From the NCBI GenBank assembly GCA_023079485.1, contig CM041084.1, forward strand, positions 67,365,709-67,429,708: a stretch of DNA of 64,000 nt. The letters are read 5' to 3'. The position numbers were made by a program, and so were the translations under genes. The DNA is from Archilochus colubris (Eukaryota > Chordata > Aves > Apodiformes > Trochilidae). The first letter of the stretch is position 1; each line of letters starts with the position of its first letter. The notes below the pieces were generated by a model. That model searched no databases. It was not told the origin of the DNA and saw only the letters and a program-made list of their open reading frames with translations. Below, one piece after another: positions 7,859 to 64,000 of the stretch.

Positions 7859-8095
7859 TGTAGTGTAACAAGGCAACCAGGTGCCCCTAATTACCAGGCA
7901 GTGGGCATGAGCTTGTGTTAAGCCCACCTGTGCCTAATTAGGGTGGGCCCCAACTGCAGATGAGCAGGATTAGGGGGCCAATAAAAGGGCTCATGCGCAG
8001 TTGGGGCCCGCCCTAATCAGGCACAGGTGGGCTTAACACAAGCTCATGCCCACTGCCTGGCAATTAGGGGCACCTGGTTGCCTTGTTATACTACA
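7859..8095. mobile_element. Fold-back element made of inverted LTR-like arms
   Basis: The left half (from TGTAGTGTAACAAGGCAACC) and the right half (ending GGTTGCCTTGTTATACTACA) are near-perfect inverted copies of about 105 bases each. They flank a loop of about 20 bases (AGGGGGCCAATAAAAG). The left arm aligns by eye with the U3 of the LTRs at 49 kb and 50 kb: TGTAGTG start, ACCAGGTGCC, AGTGGGCATGAGC, CCACCTGTGCC and GGGGCCAATAA occur in the same order. The unit therefore looks like the 5' half of a related LTR (call it family C) followed by an inverted copy of itself. The flanks CATATA and CGTATG match at four of six positions and may be a decayed 6-bp target duplication. It could fold into a long hairpin if transcribed. 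It could instead be an unrelated DNA-transposon MITE, but the shared word order argues against that. Confidence 0.75.
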
Positions 8096-41335: not shown

Positions 41336-41650
41336 ATTATGTGTAGCGGGAGGAGCCCTTCTTGCTCCTAGGGCTGATCCTGAGGCCTCAGGGTTTAGCC
41401 CATTCCTGGACGATGTCCTAGGGCTGTTCCTGGGGCTCCGGGATCTACCCCTTCTTGCCTGCTCCTGGAGCTCCTCGAGCTGTGGACTTCTCCATCCTCA
41501 CTGAAGAGTGAGAGCCTCTCCATGGGTGTCAGCTGCTCTCTTATTGGCCCCCTGCTCCTGCACATGCTCAGGAGGGAGGCCAGACACAGGTGAACCCACA
41601 CCCACTCATCAATAACTCAGGGCACCTGGTCCTGTCTCACTACAATTATG
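41336..41650 (-). mobile_element. Solo LTR of family B with perfect 6-bp target duplication
   Basis: The LTR proper is 41342-41644 (303 bases). It is the reverse complement of the internal LTR at 50075-50378, with about six substitutions and a one-base length difference by eye (about 98% identical). It is flanked by ATTATG at 41336-41341 and 41645-41650, an exact 6-base duplication typical of class II/alpha-type retroviral integration. Read on the minus strand it starts TGTAGTGAGACAGGACCAGG, carries GGGGGCCAATAAGAG (CCAAT box next to an AATAA-type sequence) and ends CTCCCGCTACA. No internal sequence remains, so a provirus of this family inserted here and was then reduced by recombination between its LTRs. 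Confidence 0.93.
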
Positions 41651-49063: not shown

Positions 49064-49069
49064 TTCTCC

Positions 49070-49382
49070 TGTAGTGGAACAGAGCGACCAGGTGCCTCTG
49101 ATCATCAGGAAGTGGGTGTGAGCCGCTATCAACTCCACCTGTGCCCAGTCAGGGCAGGGCCCCTATGGAGCATGTGCAAGACCATGGGGCCAATAAATAG
49201 TGAGGCTCACACCCACTGAGGCAGCTCATTCCAGAGCTAGCTGAGAGAGTGGCTGGTTGCTTCCTTAGCAGCAGAACATCTTTGCTAGCTCCACACTGTG
49301 GGCAATAGATTCAGATCACATCCGAGTCTATATCACCGTATCAACGCATCGACTCCGGACAAGAGACTCCTTTCCAGCTACA
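49070..49382 (+). repeat. 5' outer LTR, family A
   Basis: This 313-base LTR starts TGTAGTGGAACAGAGCGACC and ends TTTCCAGCTACA. It contains GGGGCCAATAAATAG, which could serve as CCAAT box and TATA-like element or RNA 3'-end signal. It matches the 3' outer LTR except at 49346, 49348 and at the last few bases before the CTACA end (one missing C and one substitution). Thus all differences lie in the last 40 bases and the first 270 are identical by eye. Its first half aligns with LTR-B and with the fold-back element at 7.9 kb, so the families are related. In a provirus this LTR drives transcription of the whole unit. Confidence 0.93.
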
Positions 49383-49402
49383 TCTGGTGGAGAATGTGGG
49401 CA
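49383..49402 (+). promoter_or_regulatory. Primer-binding site after LTR-A
   Basis: Two bases (TC) after the LTR end comes TGGTGGAGAATGTGGGCA, where the tRNA primer for minus-strand DNA synthesis should bind. Its first nine bases (TGGTGGAGA) match the complement of the 3' end of vertebrate tRNA-Ala species ending CTCCACCA, as recalled. The following bases match only with a gap, so the tRNA assignment is tentative. The site is nearly identical to the one after LTR-B. Confidence 0.65.
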
Positions 49403-50044
49403 GCCTGCAGAAAACCTAGCTGGCACAGAAACTGCAAGAACATTCTCCCTGTAAGGTATGATCAACAAGCTCTCTGGACAGGAAACCCCAGAGCAGAGGG
49501 GAAAATCCCATGAGGAAGGGTTAAATCCCGAGGCCCATGAGGAAAGAAACCCCGGAACAGAGGGAAACCAAGCCAGAAGAGCAGATACAGGAGGGAGAAT
49601 AATAACTAGAAGAACAACTTGCAGAGACTCTGTGAAAAGTGCCTGGTGCAACTTGCAGAGACTTTGTGAAATATGCCTAGGCTAAGCCCTTGAGCAGAGG
49701 GAAATCCCATGAGGAAGGGTTAAATCCCGAGGCCCATGAGGAAAAAACCCCGGAACAGAGGGCAAGTGCCTGGGACAATTTGCAGAGACTTTGTGAAGAG
49801 TGCTCAGACAACTTGCAGAGACTTTGCCAGGAAGGGGCTGACATCGAGCGAATATATGGGTATGCTTAATTCCCCTTAAAGAAAGAAGGTTGAAAGAAAG
49901 AAGGTTGAGAATTCTCCCCAAAATATGTGTAAGGGTTGAGAATTCTCCCTAAAAATATATGTAAATTGTGTGATGTTTAATTCCCCTTAAAGATGTATAT
50001 GTAAAAAGATGTAAATATGTAAATGTCTATGTAAATGTCTGTGT
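49403..50044 (+). other. Non-coding retroviral internal segment with duplicated blocks
   Basis: About 640 bases lie between the first primer-binding site and the first polypurine tract. They show no gag, pro or pol similarity. The longest open frames are about 75-107 codons without motifs. Two imperfect copies of a block recur: one starts near 49497 and the other near 49698, each with AATCCCATGAGGAAGGGTTA, then ATCCCGAGGCCCATGAGGAA and CCCCGGAACAGAGGG. The phrase AACTTGCAGAGACT occurs repeatedly, often continuing TTGTGAA. The right part has further small repeats (GAAAGAAGGTTG; GGTTGAGAATTCTCCC). Lying between retroviral priming sites but non-coding, it looks like the body of a non-autonomous element that needed proteins from a coding relative. 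It may hold packaging signals, but nothing proves this. Confidence 0.75.
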
Positions 50045-50074
50045 AAAAAAAAAAAAAAAAAAAAAAGGGGGAAA
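50045..50074 (+). promoter_or_regulatory. Polypurine tract upstream of internal LTR-B
   Basis: Twenty-two A, five G and AAA run directly into the TGTAGTG start of LTR-B. This purine tract next to an LTR is the expected primer for plus-strand DNA synthesis. Its presence shows that the LTR-B here sits where a 3' LTR of the non-coding segment would be, and not at a random insertion point. Confidence 0.85.
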
Positions 50075-50378
50075 TGTAGTGAGACAGAACCAGGTGCCCT
50101 GAGTTATTGATGAGTGGGTGTGGGTTCACCTGTGTCTGGCCTCCCTCCTGAGCATGTGCAGGAGCAGGGGGCCAATAAGAGAGCAGCTGACACCCATGGA
50201 GAGAGCTCTCACTCTTCAGTGAGGATGGAGAAGCCCACAGCTCGAGGAGCTCCAGGAGCAGGCAAGAAGGGGTAGATCCTGGAGCCCCAGGAACAGCCCT
50301 AGGACATCGTCCAGGAATGGGCTAAACCCCAAGGCCTCAGGATCAGCCCTAGGAGCAAGAAGGGCTCCTCCCACTACA
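50075..50378 (+). repeat. Internal LTR, family B
   Basis: This 304-base LTR starts TGTAGTGAGACAGAACCAGG, carries AGGGGGCCAATAAGAGAGC and ends CTCCTCCCACTACA. It matches the solo LTR at 41342-41644 (opposite strand) at about 98% by eye. It is related to family A in the first half but has a different R/U5 part. The bases on its two sides (GGGAAA before, TCTGGT after) are a polypurine tract and a primer-binding lead, and do not form a target duplication. It therefore did not arrive as a simple solo-LTR insertion. It can act as the 3' LTR of the left segment and as the 5' LTR of the coding segment. Confidence 0.92.
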
Positions 50379-50522
50379 TCTGGTGGAGAATGCGGGCATA
50401 GACCTTGGTCTAGCCCAAATTTCCGTCAGATCAAGAAAAAAAAAAAAACAGGACCTGACCCAGGGCAAACGACAACCGGCAGTTGGGTAAGAAGATCCAT
50501 TATCTCTCAATTATCACTAAAG
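50379..50522 (+). promoter_or_regulatory. Second primer-binding site and gag leader
   Basis: TC and then TGGTGGAGAATGCGGGCA (50381-50398) repeat the primer-binding site found after LTR-A with one change. A leader of about 124 bases follows up to the gag ATG. It includes an A run (50434-50445) and GGGTAAGAAG (50487-50496), which resembles a splice donor, although no env or other spliced gene exists in this copy. After the primer-binding site the leader no longer resembles the left non-coding segment. Confidence 0.7.
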
Positions 50523-52391
50523 ATGGGACTCTCCTCCAGCACCCCCTCTGCACAGAGACCTTCCTACTCCCCATCTGCAATCACTGCACGGGCACTTTGG
50601 AGGGAGGTCGGAGACTTACTAAATGAACTCCACGATCAGGAGGTTCAAAAGAATATAGCGGGGGTAGAGGCCACCTGGAAAGTGATGGCTAACGCCCTAG
50701 AAGGGATAAAGAATGAGGCAAGGGCTGCCGTCACCGCAATAGTGGCAATGCCACCAAACGGCAGCTTTATTAAAACACCGCCTCCTGAGGTTGAAACCAG
50801 CGTGGTTCCCTCGGCACCCCCACTGCCGCCCGAGGATGAAGGAGCCCAGAAGGCATTCCCTATCCTAAGCAACAACAGCTTCGCCGTCAAGGGCATGAGA
50901 GGGAAGGTACATCATACTATAGCCGAGTTCCTTTCCGACCTCGGATTAAAGGAAGAAAAGGCTCCGGACAACGTAAAACCATCAACATGTGACCCTAGCG
51001 GCGATGTAAAACCTTCCCTACCATTACCTCCCAGCCCAGAAAATAAGTGTGACAAAACAGCAGTCACCCCATCAGCCATACCCGTTGGGCCAGAATCAAC
51101 GATAAAAACATTATTAGAACAATCCACCCAAGCAATGAAATCCTTAGAGAAGAGAATATTGAACCTAGAACAACGGTCATCATTTCACACCTACCGAGAC
51201 CCACCCTCCCTCCCCGATGATGATGAGGAAAGCATACCAGCACCACTGTTGTCAAAGCAGACCAACCAGGGCATCGGCAAATCCCGACCCGGAAGATGGT
51301 CCGACATCATTCGTGATGCCATCATTGAAGGAGATTGGGAGCCTAACACCGTAGCCTATCCTATCTTGTATGATAACAACAGGCCACCCATCTACGAGCA
51401 ACACAGCTGGAAGACGCTCCAACAGGCGAAAAAGACCCTGAGGGAGGGGGGACTAAGATCGGAAAGCGGCCAAGCCATCTTAGACTGGTTATTCACCGCG
51501 GACACCAACTGTCCTCGTGACTGCCGGAATCTAGCCAGGTACCTGCTCACTCCGTCCCAACAGATTGTATGGGTAAAGGAGTGGGAACGCCTGGCCCACG
51601 TAGAGGCGAACCGCCCGCGAGCAGCTGGTGACCCGTTAGTAGGGGTAACCGGTGAAATGCTCACGGGTGCAGGACAGTACGCGGACATACAGGTCCAGCT
51701 CCAATTCCCGGCCATACTACATCATATTACGGTGCGCTTGGCCCGCCAGGCGTTCAACGTAGTCCCTGAGCCTACCCCGCTCCCTTCATTTACTGCCGTG
51801 AAACAAGGGATAAACGAGCCGTACCAACACTTCGTTGACAGACTCTGGCAGTCTGTCACAGCTCAATCTGAACTAGGGGCCGAGCAAAGGGACTCAATGT
51901 TTAAACTTTTGGCATTTGAAAACGCCAACCCAAAAATGAAATCACTATTTTCTACATTACCAAAAACAGCAGAGGTCTCGGACATGCTGGAGGTTGCTGC
52001 CAGAGCCACCCAGACGCAGCAGCACCAAGGGATGGCCAATGCTTTTGCTGCCGCCTTAGAGCCCACTCAAAAGCTTCTTGCGGCAGTAGCGCAAAAACTA
52101 GATGGAAGAAAAAAACATTTTAAGAAGAGAAATCGACCGAGAAATCCCATCCCCGTCTGTTATCGCTGCGGGACATCGGGCCACTCAGCAAGGCAGTGTT
52201 CAGCCATCGTCTGGTGTGACCACTGCCAGATGGATAATCACAACGACCGGGCATGCTGGTACAAAAAAAACGGACGGCGCAGCGCGCAGGGCCCCCGCGC
52301 CATGACACAAGTGGCAGGGCCAGCGCTTTACAACAACTCCCCGCCCCAGCCACAAGAGGGAGCTTGGGCTTCGATGTGCCCTGTGCAATAG
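50523..52391 (+). CDS. gag: Retroviral Gag polyprotein
   Basis: An intact 622-residue frame encodes the structural polyprotein that assembles the particle on membranes and packages RNA. It starts MGLSSS, with Gly2 available for myristoylation, and the ATG has A at -3 and G at +4. A PSAP late-budding motif lies at residues 96-99 in a proline-rich linker. A predicted coiled-coil stretch lies near residues 195-220. The capsid region follows, with the major homology region VKQGINEPYQHFVDRL at about 426-441. Two CX2CX4HX4C zinc knuckles lie at 546-559 and 565-578, in the nucleocapsid. Length and layout fit betaretrovirus-like Gag. No stops or frame breaks were seen. Its end overlaps the pro frame by about 120 bases, and Pro is reached by -1 frameshifting at 52265. 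It may be expressed from LTR-B, or from LTR-A with a long leader. Confidence 0.95.
   Translation: MGLSSSTPSAQRPSYSPSAITARALWREVGDLLNELHDQEVQKNIAGVEATWKVMANALEGIKNEARAAVTAIVAMPPNGSFIKTPPPEVETSVVPSAPPLPPEDEGAQKAFPILSNNSFAVKGMRGKVHHTIAEFLSDLGLKEEKAPDNVKPSTCDPSGDVKPSLPLPPSPENKCDKTAVTPSAIPVGPESTIKTLLEQSTQAMKSLEKRILNLEQRSSFHTYRDPPSLPDDDEESIPAPLLSKQTNQGIGKSRPGRWSDIIRDAIIEGDWEPNTVAYPILYDNNRPPIYEQHSWKTLQQAKKTLREGGLRSESGQAILDWLFTADTNCPRDCRNLARYLLTPSQQIVWVKEWERLAHVEANRPRAAGDPLVGVTGEMLTGAGQYADIQVQLQFPAILHHITVRLARQAFNVVPEPTPLPSFTAVKQGINEPYQHFVDRLWQSVTAQSELGAEQRDSMFKLLAFENANPKMKSLFSTLPKTAEVSDMLEVAARATQTQQHQGMANAFAAALEPTQKLLAAVAQKLDGRKKHFKKRNRPRNPIPVCYRCGTSGHSARQCSAIVWCDHCQMDNHNDRACWYKKNGRRSAQGPRAMTQVAGPALYNNSPPQPQEGAWASMCPVQ
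52265..52301 (+). promoter_or_regulatory. gag-pro -1 ribosomal frameshift signal
   Basis: The canonical slippery heptamer A AAA AAC lies at 52265-52271, in the phase needed for slippage from the gag frame (AAA in the P site, AAC in the A site). It is followed after a short spacer by a very GC-rich stretch in which GGCGC (52276-52280) can pair with GCGCC (52297-52301), a plausible stem or pseudoknot. The pro frame is -1 relative to gag and continues without stop from here. Betaretroviruses use this type of site for gag-pro. Confidence 0.9.
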
Positions 52392-53089
52392 ATATTACAT
52401 TGACAACAAACCAGGTCTACCGGCTACCGTCAGGGATTCACGGACCAATCCATCAAGAAAATGGCACGGTTGGGGCATTGCTAATAGGGCGTTCATCAAC
52501 TGGAATGGCAGGACTTGTTGTGCTTCCTGGAGTCATAGACGCAGATTCAACAGGGGAGATAATGATTACATGTTTCACGTTAACACCTCCCCTAGTAATC
52601 AAGGCAGGAACCCGAGTAGCGCAACTAGTCCTCCTTCCAAAAATGAACATAGGGAAGAACGCCCACACGACGCGAGGCGACCGAAGTTTTGGGTCTTCGG
52701 GAGGCACGATAGTAAGCTTAGTACAACAGATGAAGACTAGACCCATTATTGTTATAAAAATGGTCGCCGAAAACGAGGCAAAGACACTTTCAGTGATGTT
52801 GGATACAGGAGCCGATGTCACAATTATCAATCTCAACATATGGCCACGTCACTGGAAGCTCGTCACAGCCCGCGACACCGTCCAGGGAGTGGGTGGTGGT
52901 TCCACCCCCCAGCAAGCCCTAGAACCGATTCAACTCCACTTTCCTGAAGGTCAAAAGATATCCGTGCGTCCCTATGTGCTAGCCTTGCCTGGACAACTCG
53001 GAGGTTTGATCGGGAGAGAAGTGATGAGTCAACTCGGAGCCGTCCTTTCCATTCCCGAGCCCACCCGATCCCTCCAGAATTTTCAGTAG
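52272..53089 (+). CDS. pro: dUTPase-protease (Pro frame)
   Basis: This frame, expressed as a Gag-Pro fusion, encodes two domains. The first is a trimeric-type dUTPase (dUTP to dUMP plus pyrophosphate, limiting uracil incorporation). Its motifs are GSLGFD near 52358-52375, GRSS at 52487-52498, GVIDADSTGEI from 52529, RVAQLVLLP near 52610-52640 and RSFGSSGG at 52682-52705. All five expected motifs are recognisable. The second is an aspartic protease with LDTGAD (DTG at 52802-52810), a flap-like glycine-rich stretch (GVGGGS) and LIGREV near the C-terminus. It cleaves Gag and Pol during maturation. The protein frame is open from the slippery site to the stop at 53087-53089. A dUTPase at this position is characteristic of betaretroviruses. 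Any ATG in the frame (52253) precedes the slippage site and is unlikely to be used. Confidence 0.92.
53077..53083 (+). promoter_or_regulatory. Probable pro-pol -1 frameshift site
   Basis: G AAT TTT sits just before the pro stop (TAG at 53087-53089) in the phase that lets ribosomes slip from the pro frame into the pol frame, which is again -1. It is one base different from the A AAT TTT type of heptamer known in betaretroviral pro-pol junctions. The first position is a mismatch for full re-pairing, so efficiency is uncertain. No strong stem was identified downstream by eye. Confidence 0.6.
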
Positions 53090-53700
53090 GGGCCACTGCA
53101 AGAGTGCCGCCAACACCCAGACTAAAATGGAAATCAGACACCCCTGTCTGGGTGGAGCAGTGGCCTTTACAGAGAGAGCGGCTACAAATTGCTAAAAACT
53201 TAGTAAAGGAACAACTGAATGCGGGGCACATCCAACCATCAGTAAGCCCATGGAACACACCAATATTTGTGGTTCCTAAAAAATCAGGTAAATGGAGACT
53301 AATACAAGATCTACGAAAGGTCAATAACCAGATGTGGCCAATGGGCGCCCTCCAACCCGGGCTGCCCCTACTCACGATGTTACCAAACGACTGGCACCTT
53401 CTGGTTATCGATCTCAAAGATTGTTTCTTTAATATTCCCCTGGATCCTAAAGACACAGCGCGCTTCGCGTTCACGATTCCGTCCATCAACAAAAGTGAAC
53501 CCGCGGAAAGATACGAATGGGTTGTCCTGCCACAGGGGATGAAAAATTCCCTGACGATATGCCAGATGTACGTGGCCTGGGCGTTATCGCCGATCCGCAA
53601 TGAGATGCCAGATACATTAATATATCACTATATGGATGACATACTGTTTTGCCAAAAAGCCCCATTCCCCGAAGATTTCAGTCAAACAGTGACCAACTGA
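53083..53700 (+). pseudogene. pol: Pol, N-terminal part: reverse transcriptase fingers and palm, ends at a TGA
   Basis: The pol frame opens right at the pro end and encodes the reverse transcriptase core. Visible are a WVEQWPL lead-in, SPWNTPIFVVPKKSGKWRLI (fingers/palm), VIDLKDCFF with the first catalytic Asp, VLPQGM, and YHYMDDILF carrying the YMDD catalytic pair at 53629-53640. The frame stops at TGA 53698-53700, about 20 codons after YMDD, while the next 2 kb is open in the same frame. This copy's Pol is therefore cut by a single nonsense codon with no length change. The protein would normally be made only as a Gag-Pro-Pol fusion after two frameshifts, as the frame has no plausible ATG start here. 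The wording is close to betaretroviral reverse transcriptases. Confidence 0.9.
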
Positions 53701-55749
53701 CTAAAGACCAAAGGATTAATAGTGGCTCCAGAAAAAGTGCAAACGAAATCGCCTTGGAGCTACTTGGGGTGGAAAGTCACCCACGCGATGGTAAGACCTC
53801 AAAAATTGGAAGTGATAAGTTCAATCAAAACTTTGAACGATGCTCAAAAATTAGTGGGTGAACTCCAATGGGTCCGACCCATAATAGGTCTTACCAATAC
53901 AGATATCCACCCCTTCTTGTCACTGTTACGGGGCACACATCCAGGTACGTTAGTACACTGGACAGATGACCACACCAAGGCTTTAAAGCAGGTCGTCCAT
54001 AAACTGGCAACCAGCTACGCGGATCGATGGGATGCCGCACAACCCATTGGGATCTGGGTATGCAACCATCCATCATACCCATTCGCGCTACTACTCCAGG
54101 ACTTCTGCTGGAATAAGGAAAATGGGGAATATTCTCACGCCACCGAAAAACGTCAACATAAGCAGAGGTCCCCAACTTCGGACTCTATAGCCATCTTGGA
54201 GTGGCTATTCACACCACACACTCCACAGAAGGGTGTTTGGCAGCAGACCGAAATAATAGCACTTCTGATACGGAAAGGACGGCAGCGTTGTTTAGAAGTA
54301 GACGGTCAGGAGCCGGGATGGATTAGCATCCCCATAAAAACAGCTGATTTCGACTGGCTATTACAACGCTCCGAGCCTCTACAACTGGCACTATTCGGTT
54401 ATTCTGGGGAAGTCCGCCACGGAGGCCCAAGACATAAACGTCTGCAAGCGATCAGCCAGTTCCAGTGGATCGAACGTCCATCGGTTTCAGAGCGCCCAGT
54501 GTCTGGCATTACGGTATTCACCGATGCCGGAAAAAGATCAAAAACGGCCGCCTGCGTATGGCAAGACAAAGGTCGGTGGAAACATCATCTGATTCCAGGC
54601 ACTGCGGAAGACAATCTAGAAACGCTGGAACTACTGGCCATCATTTGGGCTCTCACACAGTGGCAACGGGCTCCCCTCAACATAGTCTCCGACTCACAAT
54701 ATGCAGTCGGAGTGGCAAACCGTATTGAAGATGCTATTATTAAACCAGTACGGAACAAGCGTCTGCTAGAACTCTTTTACATGTTACAACGAGCACTAAA
54801 AGTCCGAACAGAGCCCTGCTGTATCCTTCATATTCGAAGTCATAAAACATCCCTGGGACTGGGTGAGGGAAATGCAAAGGCTGACTCCCTGGTCAGCCTA
54901 GGGATTCAGAGCCCGGTGAGCCAGTTTGCAAAGGCTCGGGACAGCCACTCCCTATTTCATCAAAACGCCAGGGCATTAAAGCGCATGTTCTCTATACTAT
55001 GGGAGGATGCTAAAGGAATTGTTAGAGCCTGCCCCCAGTGCGCGCAATTTGGCCCGGCCCTGGGTATGGGAGTAAACCCGCGTGGATTGCAAGCTGGCGA
55101 GACGTGGCAAATGGACGTCACCCATGTCCCAGAATTTGGACGATTAAAGTATGTCCATGTAACAGTGGACACTTTCTCTGGAATGATTTGGGCAACAGCC
55201 CAAACGGGGGAGAAAGCTCTACATGTGGTCCGTCATTTAACAAACTGTTTTGCTGTCATGGGGGTCCCCCAAGTAGTAAAAACCGACAACGCACCCGCCT
55301 ATACAGGTGGGAAAGTCCAACAATTCTTTGCTACTTGGGGGGTAAAGCACATCACGGGAATCCCCCATTCGCCTTCAGGCCAAGCGATCGTAGAAAGAGC
55401 TCATCGCACCCTGAAGACATACCTACAGAAACAGAAGGACAGCAAGGAGACGGACCCACAGATGCGGCTGGGCAAGGTACTTTTCACACTAAATTTTCTT
55501 AGCCCAAGCCGCGACTCAGAGCAACCCCCCGTGCTGTTGCACTATTCTTCACAGAAGATCAATCGCATGCCGGACGTACAGATCTATTATAAAGATCCTT
55601 CAACAGGCCAGTGGCTAGGGCCAAAACCGCTGCTGTTCACCGGGAGGGGTTATAGTTGCGTATCCACAGACCACGGACTCCTCTGGGTGCCCAGTAAGTG
55701 GACGCGCCCTGCCACAAATAGACCTCCAAGGAACAACCAACATACCTAA
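53701..55749 (+). pseudogene. pol: Pol, C-terminal part: RT connection, RNase H and integrase
   Basis: This continues the pol frame after the TGA and stays open to TAA at 55747-55749. It holds the end of the reverse transcriptase (SPWSYLGWKV, thumb/connection). RNase H follows, with TDAG (Asp at 54523), LETLELLA (Glu), VSDSQYAV (Asp) and NAKADSL (Asp), so all four acidic positions are present. Integrase comes next: an HHCC zinc finger (HSLFH, later ACPQC) and a catalytic core with Asp in WQMDVTH (55114), Asp in KTDNAP (55285) and Glu in AIVERAH (55393), giving the DD35E spacing. The C-terminal domain has GPKPLLFTGRGYSCVS and WVPSKW, typical of betaretrovirus-like integrases. Because of the upstream stop it is translated, if at all, only by readthrough. 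No other break was seen. Confidence 0.92.
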
Positions 55750-55921
55750 TTCATGACTTTTGATTATGCCCCCCCCCTTTTTAACAAAACCAAAAAAAAA
55801 CCAAACAAACAAACAAAAAAAACAACAACAAAAAAACCAAAAAAACCAACAAAAAACAAAAAAAAAAAAACAAAAAAACCCACAAAAAAAATATTTTCCC
55901 TTAAAATTGTCATTGTAAATC
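55750..55921 (+). other. A/C-rich spacer where env would lie
   Basis: Only about 170 bases separate the pol stop from the final purine tract. They are mostly A with CC or C interruptions (AAAACCAAAC-like), plus a short T-rich piece. No env frame, signal peptide or transmembrane coding segment exists, so the element lacks an envelope gene and not just a broken one. The simple composition suggests expansion of slippage-prone sequence after loss of env, or an element that never had one. Confidence 0.85.
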
Positions 55922-55956
55922 AAAAAAAAAAAAAAAAAAAAAAAGAGGGGGGGAAA
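55922..55956 (+). promoter_or_regulatory. Polypurine tract upstream of 3' LTR-A
   Basis: About 23 A, then GA, seven G and AAA run directly into the TGTAGTGG start of the 3' LTR. It has the same layout as the tract before LTR-B at 50045-50074, with two extra G and an interrupting GA. It is the expected priming site for plus-strand DNA synthesis. Confidence 0.88.
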
Positions 55957-56270
55957 TGTAGTGGAACAGAGCGACCAGGTGCCTCTGATCATCAGGAAGT
56001 GGGTGTGAGCCGCTATCAACTCCACCTGTGCCCAGTCAGGGCAGGGCCCCTATGGAGCATGTGCAAGACCATGGGGCCAATAAATAGTGAGGCTCACACC
56101 CACTGAGGCAGCTCATTCCAGAGCTAGCTGAGAGAGTGGCTGGTTGCTTCCTTAGCAGCAGAACATCTTTGCTAGCTCCACACTGTGGGCAATAGATTCA
56201 GATCACATCCGAGTCTATATCACCGTATCAACACGTCGACTCCGGACAAGAGACTCCTTTCCCGGCTACA
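55957..56270 (+). repeat. 3' outer LTR, family A
   Basis: This 314-base LTR starts TGTAGTGGAACAGAGCGACC and ends TTTCCCGGCTACA. It is about 99% identical to the 5' outer LTR, with the few differences confined to its last 40 bases (56233, 56235 and the end). It is followed immediately by TTCTCC, the right target duplication. It would supply the RNA 3'-end signal. Such high similarity of the two outer LTRs argues that the integration is recent on an evolutionary scale, unless conversion has kept them alike. Confidence 0.94.
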
Positions 56271-56276
56271 TTCTCC

Positions 56277-61240: not shown

Positions 61241-64000
61241 TTGATAATCTGGGTTAACTCTCTCTGTGCGGACCATATATGGGGTTAATAAGCAGGATTT
61301 CGTCCCCAGAACCGGGGAGGTCGCTGCTGGTTTAAAGTGGGGGCACTTCCAGCCCTCCCGCCCACCTTGTAAGTGCTTGGCCATGGGAAACCAGCATTTG
61401 TTGCCTTCTTCCAGCAGGGCCTTTACTCTTCTGTTTCTGTCCACTGAGGCAAATGTTTCACTCCAAAGAAATTGTTGGGTAGTCTGGGGGTAAGGCATTG
61501 GACATCATCCTGGATTACAGAGAAGAATGTGCGATTTGGTGTTTTCTTGTGGTTTTCCCCCTCTCCGCTCATCAGTCCCCCCAAAACCAAGCTTAAGTGC
61601 ATGTCCAGCTAAGTAAGGCTTAATGCTAAAATGACTGGCTTTCCAAAAGGTCTTGTAGTATCTCCTGCAGTGTGTTTTTATTGCCTATCACTTTTAAACT
61701 CTCTCCAAACACAGCTGTCACAGGCAGCAATGGGTGCTGTGGCAGCTGTGCACTTTCAGTGTTACCTGGGCAGTGGGAAGCAGACAGGATGGAGTAGCTT
61801 GTGGATAGGTGTAGAGTTGCAGGATTGACATTTTTATTGAAAATTATTAAATTGGAAATTCTACTGTAAAATTGCTTGTGCATGAGTAAGAATCACAAAG
61901 TCAATTTGTGGAATTTCCTCTTTGTATCAAAAATAAGTTAATAAATACTCAAAGAAAACTAAGCATTTGGAGTGTTAAGTGTATTCAGTTTACAATCTTC
62001 TAAGCACAATAGTGAAGCAGGCATCATCGTACCAAGAAGGTGAACTGGATTGAAAAATTATTAATTTTTTCTGAAGCTGTTGGTTTGTCCTTGCTTAGGT
62101 AGCCTTCTTGTTCTGGAATACTTCTTGCCTACAGTAAACTTGTTTTTACTACAGTGGCTGCTCTTCAGCTTGGGAGGCAGCCGTCTTAAGGGTCTCGGTT
62201 CACTTCTGTCAAGGCTGTTGAGCAGTGTCCCAAGTTTCTTCTTGGCTTTGCTGCAACATCTGAAAGTTCACAGCCCACCCACACAGCAGGAGCTCAGGTG
62301 CTCAAGTGCCAGCATAATATGCATCTGTAAATAATTAGTCCATGCAGCCCTTTTGTATTTCTGTCTGGGAATTAATTTAACCGGCTCCCTGCATTGCTTA
62401 TTCTTCACTTGGTAGTGCAGTGTTACTCTTTGGATCTCTGACTGCAGAACTTACAGCTCTTTTCTGCTTCTTCTCCCACTAAGCCAGTCAGATGCAAAGT
62501 CCTGAAGGAAGGCCTGGAGAGGTTGTATTTGCCCTGGAATTGTGCATGTTATGAGGAAACTTCTCTATTAGAGGTGAAAGAAAAACTGATGGTTTGCAGC
62601 TGAGATATTATTTCTGCTTTCATTGAATGACTATGCACTGGGGCCTTTCTCAGTGAGAAGAAGCTCAGTATTCCAGGTCGTTACTCAAAAATACTTCTTT
62701 ATTGCTGTTAATGGTCAATCAGCTGCATCACAGGGATTTGTTTACTTGTATTTTATACTTGTTCTTATTGCGTGAGGAGGATGGAAACAGTCTTCCACTG
62801 TTGCAGATAGGCAATAACGTTTCCTGCATGTAGACATAGTTGCACCCAGGGTGCATGTAAGCCTTGACTTGTGGAAAACCTCTTTGAGGCTACTGTCATC
62901 CTGGAGATGACCTGTAAATTTGGTGTTACCCCTTCTTCTGTCTTCTTTTTTTTTCAGGTTTGGCCACAGGGAACTAATTAGCTTGTAGTGGGACATGTCT
63001 GGTCCTTTCTCTCAGTCCTATTCAGGTAGATGCAGTTGGATAAGGACAAAAAATTTAGTAGCTTTGTTCTGGTATTCCTATGCTGGCTGAGCAAAAGCAA
63101 CACAGTTGCCTCTTCACTTCTGACCCACTTCCCACTGCCAGTCCCTATTTCTGTATTGCAGCAGCTGCTTTCCTTCCCTTTCCTGATGTCACCCGCAACC
63201 AACCCTGTTTGCAAGGAGGAGGACTGGATTTTTGCAGTGTTGGTCTCAAGTAGTATATCAGACTGTGTTCTTAAAAACCCTCTTTGCTAACACCCTGGAG
63301 TCTTCTGTGGGGCTGTACGAGAACCTCTTGTGCTATCAGTAGAGGTTGCATTTATGACTGAAACTTTTCCCCAGGTGTTCAGACTTGTCTGAGCTGGCCA
63401 TGGTTTCACTCCTGATCTGAGGATCTGCATAGGCAGTGGATGGATGTCCTGCAGCCTCCTGAACCTCTACCCAACTTCACCACCACCTGCTAGCAGTTGG
63501 GTGGGAGTGCATCCTGGCGTGTTGACTTAGCAAAAGTGCAGCTACAGGGTTGTGTTTTGTCTCCTACACAAAACGCATACCCTGACCCTACACAAGGGAG
63601 GCCTTGTGGATTATGCTTTTTATTCTCTTGCTGTTTTACATGTGGTTTTGTGTTTTAGTTTGACCCTCTTAGGTTATGTCTCTCAGTACTGTGTCTTGGG
63701 CTGTTCTAGCTTGTCTTGCTCAGCTGTTTTCTATTTCCTGTCAGTCAGACAATGTTTTTTGGTTTGGTTTTTTTTTTTTTTTTTCCTGTGACAGGCTTCT
63801 TTTTATCAGCTCTCCTTGGTTTATTCTTTGATTATATAGGTCCTCTGCTCTGCTCCTCCTGCTTGAGATAATGATGTTTCTTTTCAAACTTCCCTGTGGT
63901 AGCTCAGACCTCTATTTCTGGTTGGTGCTTGTGAGCTAAGTTGTCTTCACCACCCCATGACAAACTCTGAATGACAGATCATTACCTCCTGACCACCAGG
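60913..64000 (+). other. Putative intron 1 and unassigned sequence to window end
   Basis: After the donor GTGAGC the CpG-rich sequence fades by about 61250 into ordinary composition. A strong acceptor-like site (a T-rich tract, then CAG at 62956-62958) is present. Splicing exon 1 to it would give a stop after ten more codons, so it is either a decoy or a non-coding or alternative exon. No other segment shows a convincing exon. A T-rich run lies at about 63769-63784. The gene most likely continues to the right of the window. Confidence 0.4.

Follow-up and report, generated by a model that had tools for sequence, protein, structure and literature searches.

We analysed a window of 64,000 nucleotides from Archilochus colubris (contig CM041084.1) that carries a 7.2 kb insertion with three long terminal repeats (LTRs). 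Two outer LTRs of one family (A) enclose a noncoding interior (nc), a complete LTR of another family (B) and a coding interior, in the order A-nc-B-coding-A, and sequence alignment revealed a single 6-bp target duplication, TTCTCC, around the whole. We conclude that this element is probably a heterodimer of two ERVK-like retroelements, formed in reverse transcription and integrated once. With somewhat less confidence, we think it likely that nc repeatedly takes the whole 5′ LTR of its partner via an 18-nt primer-binding site (PBS) by intermolecular second-strand transfer, and that the window element is the unseparated double product of this reaction. On the same reading of the joints, and held with similar confidence, the genome would contain proviruses for each predicted product, namely A-nc-B, B-coding-A and A-nc-B-coding-A.

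The element lies on the plus strand, and the two copies of its duplication (49064-49069 and 56271-56276, strandless) were located by sequence comparison. The left LTR A (49070-49382, 313 bp, TGTAG...CTACA; alignment and genome places) and the right LTR A (55957-56270, 314 bp; alignment) are three substitutions, all of CpG type, and one 1-bp indel apart, and their similarity of 547 bits is far from chance. Directly 3′ of the left LTR A, joint comparison placed TC and the 18-nt PBS (49383-49402), here with T at a CpG-type site. The noncoding interior, which contains internal repeats, follows (49403-50044) and ends in a polypurine tract (PPT) composed of an A-run and a G-run (50045-50074, from reading the sequence). 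This tract directly precedes LTR B (50075-50378, 304 bp), which is complete and is directly followed by TC and the PBS of the coding element in its C form (50379-50398). A second A-run and G-run, the PPT of the coding element (55922-55956), stands directly 5′ of the right LTR A. The flanks of LTR B, GGGAAA and TCTGGT, reveal no target duplication. A nested insertion of LTR B was rejected, both for this missing duplication and for its exact placement at PPT and PBS joints. The first-pass annotation of this sequence had likewise excluded simple nesting; it had also described one 6-bp duplication, a pair of outer A LTRs and a complete LTR of another family between a PPT and a PBS, and all of this was confirmed, coordinates included. 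The window sequence contains no N. As far as sequence can tell, the three-LTR element is real rather than an artefact.

The right interval had been proposed to hold gag-pro-pol, and Pfam domain matches agree. The leader known from A-coding elements elsewhere in the genome (50399-50522) precedes gag (50523-52391; p24, p24 C-terminal domain and zinc knuckle), for which an in-frame ATG at 50523 was seen by eye; leader and gag were cut for analysis one base 3′ of this start. The pro frame (52238-53089) contains dUTPase and aspartyl protease, and the pol frame (52948-55749) reverse transcriptase (RT), RNase H and integrase. An in-frame stop lies within RT, after the YMDD motif, at 53698-53700. No Pfam match to env was obtained in the four frames scanned, and about 200 bp separate the end of pol from LTR A. 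The closest solved Gag relative is ERVK-24 Gag. The closest RT relative is 7sr6, named ‘Polymerase’, which we take to be the HERV-K polymerase. Integrase relatives that bear names are mostly from birds and several are called ‘ERVK Pol-like’ (among 120 of 337 listed, many of them unnamed). The 6-bp duplication typical of ERVK-like elements was found in the window and, as an exact copy, in three of four paired A-coding-A proviruses. By domains, relatives and duplication length, the coding half can be assigned to ERVK-like elements (class II, betaretrovirus-like). The shared PBS reads TGGTGGAGAATGYGGGCA, which appears to differ from the tRNA-Lys PBS. Neither a tRNA nor an Rfam match was obtained from the window, and queries of viral contigs with the PBS pattern and the integrase returned no relatives, records close to the window's genome possibly being excluded from that collection.

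In the left interval we found no plus-strand frame of at least 80 amino acids; minus-strand stop-to-stop frames there measure 88 to 117 amino acids. Neither the longest plus-strand stretch of nc nor three minus-strand stretches gave a Pfam match at E 0.1, which bears out the earlier description of this interval as non-coding. The similarity between nc and LTR B was considered as a hint to their pairing and was not used, being weak (29 of 500 shuffles scored equally high).

To which family each LTR belongs was read from the host genome (1.10 Gb, 182 contigs), in which 40 places were scored per query, out of 712 candidates for nc, 1396 for LTR A with the PBS, 1213 for the A-nc joint and 2053 for the joint of LTR B with the coding leader. 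Inclusion of the PBS biased the LTR A query toward 5′ LTRs, an effect from which the nc query is free. All 40 nc places have B as their 3′ LTR, and the 5′ LTR was B at 36 (some partial) and A at four (the window, L011, L036 and L039). Twenty-five distinct nc loci have B at both outer ends, 21 of them with an exact 6-bp duplication. Among the 40 full places scored with LTR A, two of which are the window's own, 14 precede a coding leader, 12 (window included) precede nc, seven (window included) follow pol and seven have neither neighbour; at none of the 40 does LTR A follow nc. An A-nc-A provirus was absent from both sets of 40. Four A-coding-A pairs that we checked at their ends have LTRs one to three substitutions and zero to two gaps apart. 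Thus LTR A goes with the coding family and LTR B with the noncoding one, and these native pairs identify A-coding-A and B-nc-B as the parents of the window element. A search for parent proviruses had been suggested before, and it recovered B-nc-B and A-coding-A, the suggested A-nc-A form not being seen at the scored places. Given its paired LTRs, PBS, PPT, target duplication and absence of recognisable protein, B-nc-B qualifies as a nonautonomous LTR element. Since it shares the PBS, lacks a recognisable protein and was apparently co-packaged with its partner, as the hybrids described below imply, nc presumably depends on the proteins of the coding family, with A-coding as helper. Family B moves on its own, since a solo LTR B on the minus strand of the window (41342-41644), 8.4 kb from the composite element, has its own 6-bp duplication, CATAAT.

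The two LTR families resemble each other at about 70%, PPT included, over part of their length only: positions 1-158 of LTR A align with 1-134 of LTR B, and the remainder, on the U5 side, cannot be aligned. A single CpG-type site distinguishes the two PBS copies of the window, and immediately 3′ of the PBS the similarity is lost. The switch between families can therefore be confined to the PBS and the few bases of the LTR that adjoin it. At the variable site the nc family has T or C (L009-L038), and all six coding leaders examined (L003-L008) have C, a pattern that looks as though PBS strands copied from tRNA and from RNA can both become fixed. At the position of AATAAA in LTR A, LTR B reads AATAAG, and AATAAA occurs nowhere in either LTR B copy of the window, which makes read-through of LTR B conceivable.

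The joint between LTR A and nc is not confined to the window. Our query with this joint found 12 further places that span it, after which matches were to nc only. Ten of these 12 hybrids have their own exact 6-bp duplication, each different (L002, L011, L036, L039, L040, L042, L044, L046, L047 and C2:60.34M, the last known from the A-nc joint and both ends). As for the other two, L065 has an N run upstream and L062 no exact duplication match. One of the 12, C1:143.35M, spans the joint in part and carries an internal deletion. No coding piece followed LTR B in 11 hybrids over the 440 to about 1940 bases read, nor in the twelfth over 363 bases. In the hybrids read, the foreign LTR A is whole and stands at the 5′ end. 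An LTR A subtype with a 3-nt insertion is present in L011, L036, L062 and L065, other hybrids have the subtype without it, and both subtypes also occur before coding leaders. L044 and L046 have the same PBS variant as the B-nc-B locus L019.

Counted over the fetched loci (without the duplicates L009, L031, L077 and L078, without L006, and with the right end of the window, L001, uncounted), the 5′ LTR of nc is B in 37 cases and A in 12, and its 3′ LTR is B in 49 and A in none. Coding leaders are preceded by A in 13 cases and by B in three, and the 3′ LTR after pol is A or A-like in eight and never B. The nc query, free of the bias mentioned above, likewise met LTR A at 5′ in four of 40 places versus none of 40 at 3′. 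In the loci read we thus see the signature of second-strand transfer: foreign LTRs are confined to the 5′ end, the 3′ LTR is native and the switch lies at the PBS. A constraint that forces the hybrids into a single clade was rejected by the approximately unbiased (AU) test for LTR A (p 0.0114; 12 versus 27 rows) and for nc (p 0.0006; 11 versus 37 rows). These trees omit the same four duplicates, hybrid L086/L087 and any nc piece no longer than about 560 nt, which removes hybrid L046 from the nc tree; the B-nc-B rows were selected by likeness to the window's nc, and in each test one set of identical rows spanned both sides and was left unconstrained. Since a single clade was rejected for both parts, the hybrids do not share one common origin, and their sequences point to at least two separate formations. 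Moreover, the A-nc-B form should not persist through a further cycle, which would rebuild both LTRs with the U3 of B and the U5 of A. Each hybrid is therefore likely to be a fresh event, subject to the groupings in the trees.

A switch at the PBS with a whole foreign LTR on its 5′ side is what an exchange during second-strand transfer would leave behind. In this step of reverse transcription, plus-strand strong-stop DNA, which comprises the LTR and the PBS, pairs with the PBS in which the minus strand ends. We propose that a single particle took up one RNA of A-coding and one of B-nc, and that both were copied into minus-strand DNA. The strong-stop DNA of each would then anneal to the minus-strand PBS of the other, and a foreign 5′ LTR joined at the PBS to an element with its native 3′ LTR would follow from strong-stop DNA supplied by the other packaged genome. 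Where strand displacement is completed at both joints, two linear DNAs would result, A-nc-B and B-coding-A. In the case of the window element, displacement would have proceeded at the A joint only, leaving two outer copies of LTR A, and the B joint would have been closed instead, leaving a single internal LTR B. One-LTR circles probably arise by closure of this kind. Integrase would finally insert this linear DNA, bounded by LTR A on both sides, and duplicate 6 bp of the target.

The reciprocal product, B-coding-A, was sought with the joint of LTR B and the coding leader, which was present in the window and at four more places. C1:86.10M, read as separate pieces, has the order B-coding-A; its LTR A matches at 92.7% and is followed by an N run. 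The locus C22:6.74M (L081, G000:C22:6.736M) consists of LTR B, the coding leader, about 60 to 90 nt of gag and an inverted 87-nt piece of the U3 of B, within an exact duplication, CAGTCC. C1:45.6M and C32:8.43M share a common 5′ flank and a more distant coding element. In the 50 to 130 bases fetched upstream of B, none of these four places matched nc. Within C1:86.10M a B-nc-B element (L069) lies inside pro-pol of the B-coding-A copy, with flanks AGTCCT and ACTGCT that are alike at four of six positions; this B-nc-B has the appearance of a true nested insertion.

Several observations weigh against the proposed transfer. Only one three-LTR hetero-element was found among the 40 of 2053 B-leader candidates scored, and the joining of its halves at LTR B is not directly seen. 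The N run after LTR A hides any duplication at C1:86.10M, and C32:8.43M, of the form B-coding2-A2, has an A-like LTR at its 3′ end but no duplication that matches. The PBS in our LTR A query favoured 5′ LTRs. The LTR A and nc trees are poorly resolved, with unsettled bootstrap values; L011, L040 and L046 cluster in the LTR A tree (85/77), and L044 and L046 have a PBS variant in common, so that some of the hybrids may not have formed independently. Finally, same-family arrays of the form B-nc-B-nc-B, counted above among the 25 nc loci, exist at L015/L031 (C32:19.39M, duplication TTCAAC) and L026 (C79, no exact duplication), and they may stem from unequal crossing-over. L015 fits this origin better, with outer LTRs nine differences apart versus three between the first two; the arrays were accordingly not accepted as clear products of the mechanism that we propose for the window element. 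Unequal crossing-over does not fit the window element itself, whose internal LTR does not belong to the family of the outer ones.

Other routes to the element were weighed against these data. The first-pass annotation had offered two, both based on one-LTR circles. In one of them, a circle of the noncoding B element recombined into an integrated A-coding-A provirus through the PBS. This predicts the parents and the joint that we observed, and the duplication around the outer A LTRs would be compatible with an older A-coding-A insertion. However, the sequence shared at the joint amounts to 20 nt and ends right after the PBS, which is very short for homologous recombination, and the 12 further A-nc-B insertions, ten with their own exact duplication and with no coding part seen after B, are left unexplained. 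While its parents and its PBS joint stand, circle recombination is hence not the best route and appears unlikely; second-strand transfer between co-packaged RNAs fits better. In the other, a circle of a B-coding element recombined with an A-nc-A provirus where the LTR begins. A and B are similar in their PPT and LTR starts, and a few B-coding 5′ ends exist. Yet the native pairs are the reverse of what this model demands, A going with coding and B with nc; no A-nc-A was met among the 40 nc and 40 LTR A places scored, and B before the coding leader was restricted to four scored places outside the window. The model is contradicted by these counts and is the least probable that we considered. Template switching between co-packaged RNAs, which the annotation had named as a third route, came closest, but the switch lies at the PBS and takes the form of second-strand transfer. 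Its additional suggestion that the composite may have moved as one unit is unsupported, since no second A-nc-B-coding-A was found among the 40 of 2053 B-leader candidates.

A switch in the R region between two co-packaged RNAs, the route of Sabot and Schulman, would account for the single target duplication and the near-identical outer LTRs, the two signs that they give for it (PMC1950507). It also predicts chimeric LTRs, in which the coding PBS would be preceded by U5 of A, where we see U5 of B; conversely, U5 of A stands before the PBS of nc, which contradicts the model unless U5 was replaced later. No chimeras of this kind were met, the middle LTR being wholly B and the outer LTRs wholly A, and we regard an R-region switch as very unlikely. 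An assembly artefact, or rearrangement after insertion by gene conversion or by nested insertion with deletion, is more improbable still. Repeats misjoin readily and N runs occur at some other loci of this assembly, but the outer duplication matches, N is absent and the LTR/PBS joints are exact, while hybrids of the same polarity at 12 other places would not be expected from conversion. The A-nc-B hybrids could also descend from a three-LTR master element, by priming of its RNA at the internal PBS. On paper, such priming of a read-through A-nc-B-coding-A RNA can give A-nc-B, and the lack of AATAAA in LTR B renders read-through conceivable. Neither LTR A nor nc groups the hybrids as a single clade, however, so that several masters would be needed, and a single hetero-element was found in the scored sample; we give this idea next to no weight.

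Known systems include three-LTR complexes as well as autonomous and nonautonomous partners. For soybean, work by Du et al. from 2010 reportedly deals, to judge by its title on LTR swapping, with whole-LTR exchange between autonomous and nonautonomous plant partners. The three-LTR retrotransposons Angela, Squiq and Opie of grasses likewise have three LTRs, two interiors and one duplication and, as here, near-identical outer LTRs that speak for one integration event; in the account given there, both halves belong to one family and chimeric LTRs are ascribed to an R switch, whereas the window element joins a coding and a noncoding family by a switch at the PBS (Sabot and Schulman, 2007; PMC1950507). 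Tandem LTR retrotransposons of rice also comprise two units around a common internal LTR with a single duplication, but are described as same-family arrangements of open mechanism, in contrast to the two families found here (PMC11899658). Among vertebrate ERVK loci, the tandem HERV-K(HML-2) proviruses at 7p22.1 and 6q14.1 resemble the window element in their three LTRs and two interiors. They differ in being of one family throughout and in having reported single-unit alleles (PMC11807958), and recombination between like LTRs would suffice to produce them.

Closer to the mechanism, sequences from patients infected with human immunodeficiency virus type 1 (HIV-1) led to the inference of intermolecular second-strand transfer, with discordant-LTR proviruses as the predicted product (Cappy et al., 2017; PMC5651808). 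The prediction, the 5′ LTR of the other genome together with the native 3′ LTR, matches our hybrids. In the HIV-1 study the evidence comes from LTR breakpoints of later generations, whereas here the discordant proviruses themselves, and one heterodimer, reside in the genome. The C- and D-type elements of bovine ERVK[2-1-LTR] provide gene-bearing and gene-lacking ERVK partners as in our case, the gene-lacking type having been proposed as a parasite of a parasite that recombines through co-packaging (PMC10924933). As presented there, these types form one clade and recombine in segments that flank the type-specific regions; in contrast, the long shared stretch at our joint is chiefly the PBS, with the result that whole LTRs are swapped. 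New insertions of Onsen in Arabidopsis carry hybrid LTRs and, as here, indicate that related elements recombine during transposition, but the recombinants outlined in that report are within-LTR products of one plant family and not whole-LTR swaps (PMC5668417). None of the titles and abstract openings retrieved in literature searches describes a vertebrate provirus in which mismatched LTRs combine coding and noncoding partners; these searches covered few subscription papers and are weak evidence on this point.

The frequency with which second-strand transfer crosses from one packaged RNA to the other is debated, since near-identical genomes leave little trace of it. The partners described here have dissimilar U5 sides and interiors and the same PBS, so that each event can be read from one integrated copy. 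The 12 hybrid copies besides the heterodimer are enough to start measuring polarity, joint position and partner choice, and this series is worth more than the lone three-LTR element. Transfer of this type would offer a noncoding parasite a route to place its interior behind the promoter of its helper, and would be a route to double retroelement units without chromosomal recombination.

Some further structures were noticed. Locus L006 (G000:C25:6.06M; locus positions 1187-1831) consists of LTR A, the leader, 138 nt of gag and an inverted 60-nt piece of the U3 of A, bounded by an exact duplication, CTACAC; judged by its sequence, it is an integrated DNA both of whose termini are U3 ends. At C21:7883107 the match list likewise contained a piece of inverted U3 close to LTR B. 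Within the window, positions 7859-8095 hold a palindromic LTR-like unit with ends TGTAG and CTACA, in which a U3 half and its inverted copy are 88% alike. Its flanks, CATATA and CGTATG, are not an exact duplication, and the unit may be a short form of such inverted-U3 products. At the right edge of the window (62001-64000) we observed an AT skew of -0.24, which mirrors the +0.24 inside the provirus, and this segment may belong to another, minus-strand element that is cut by the window end.

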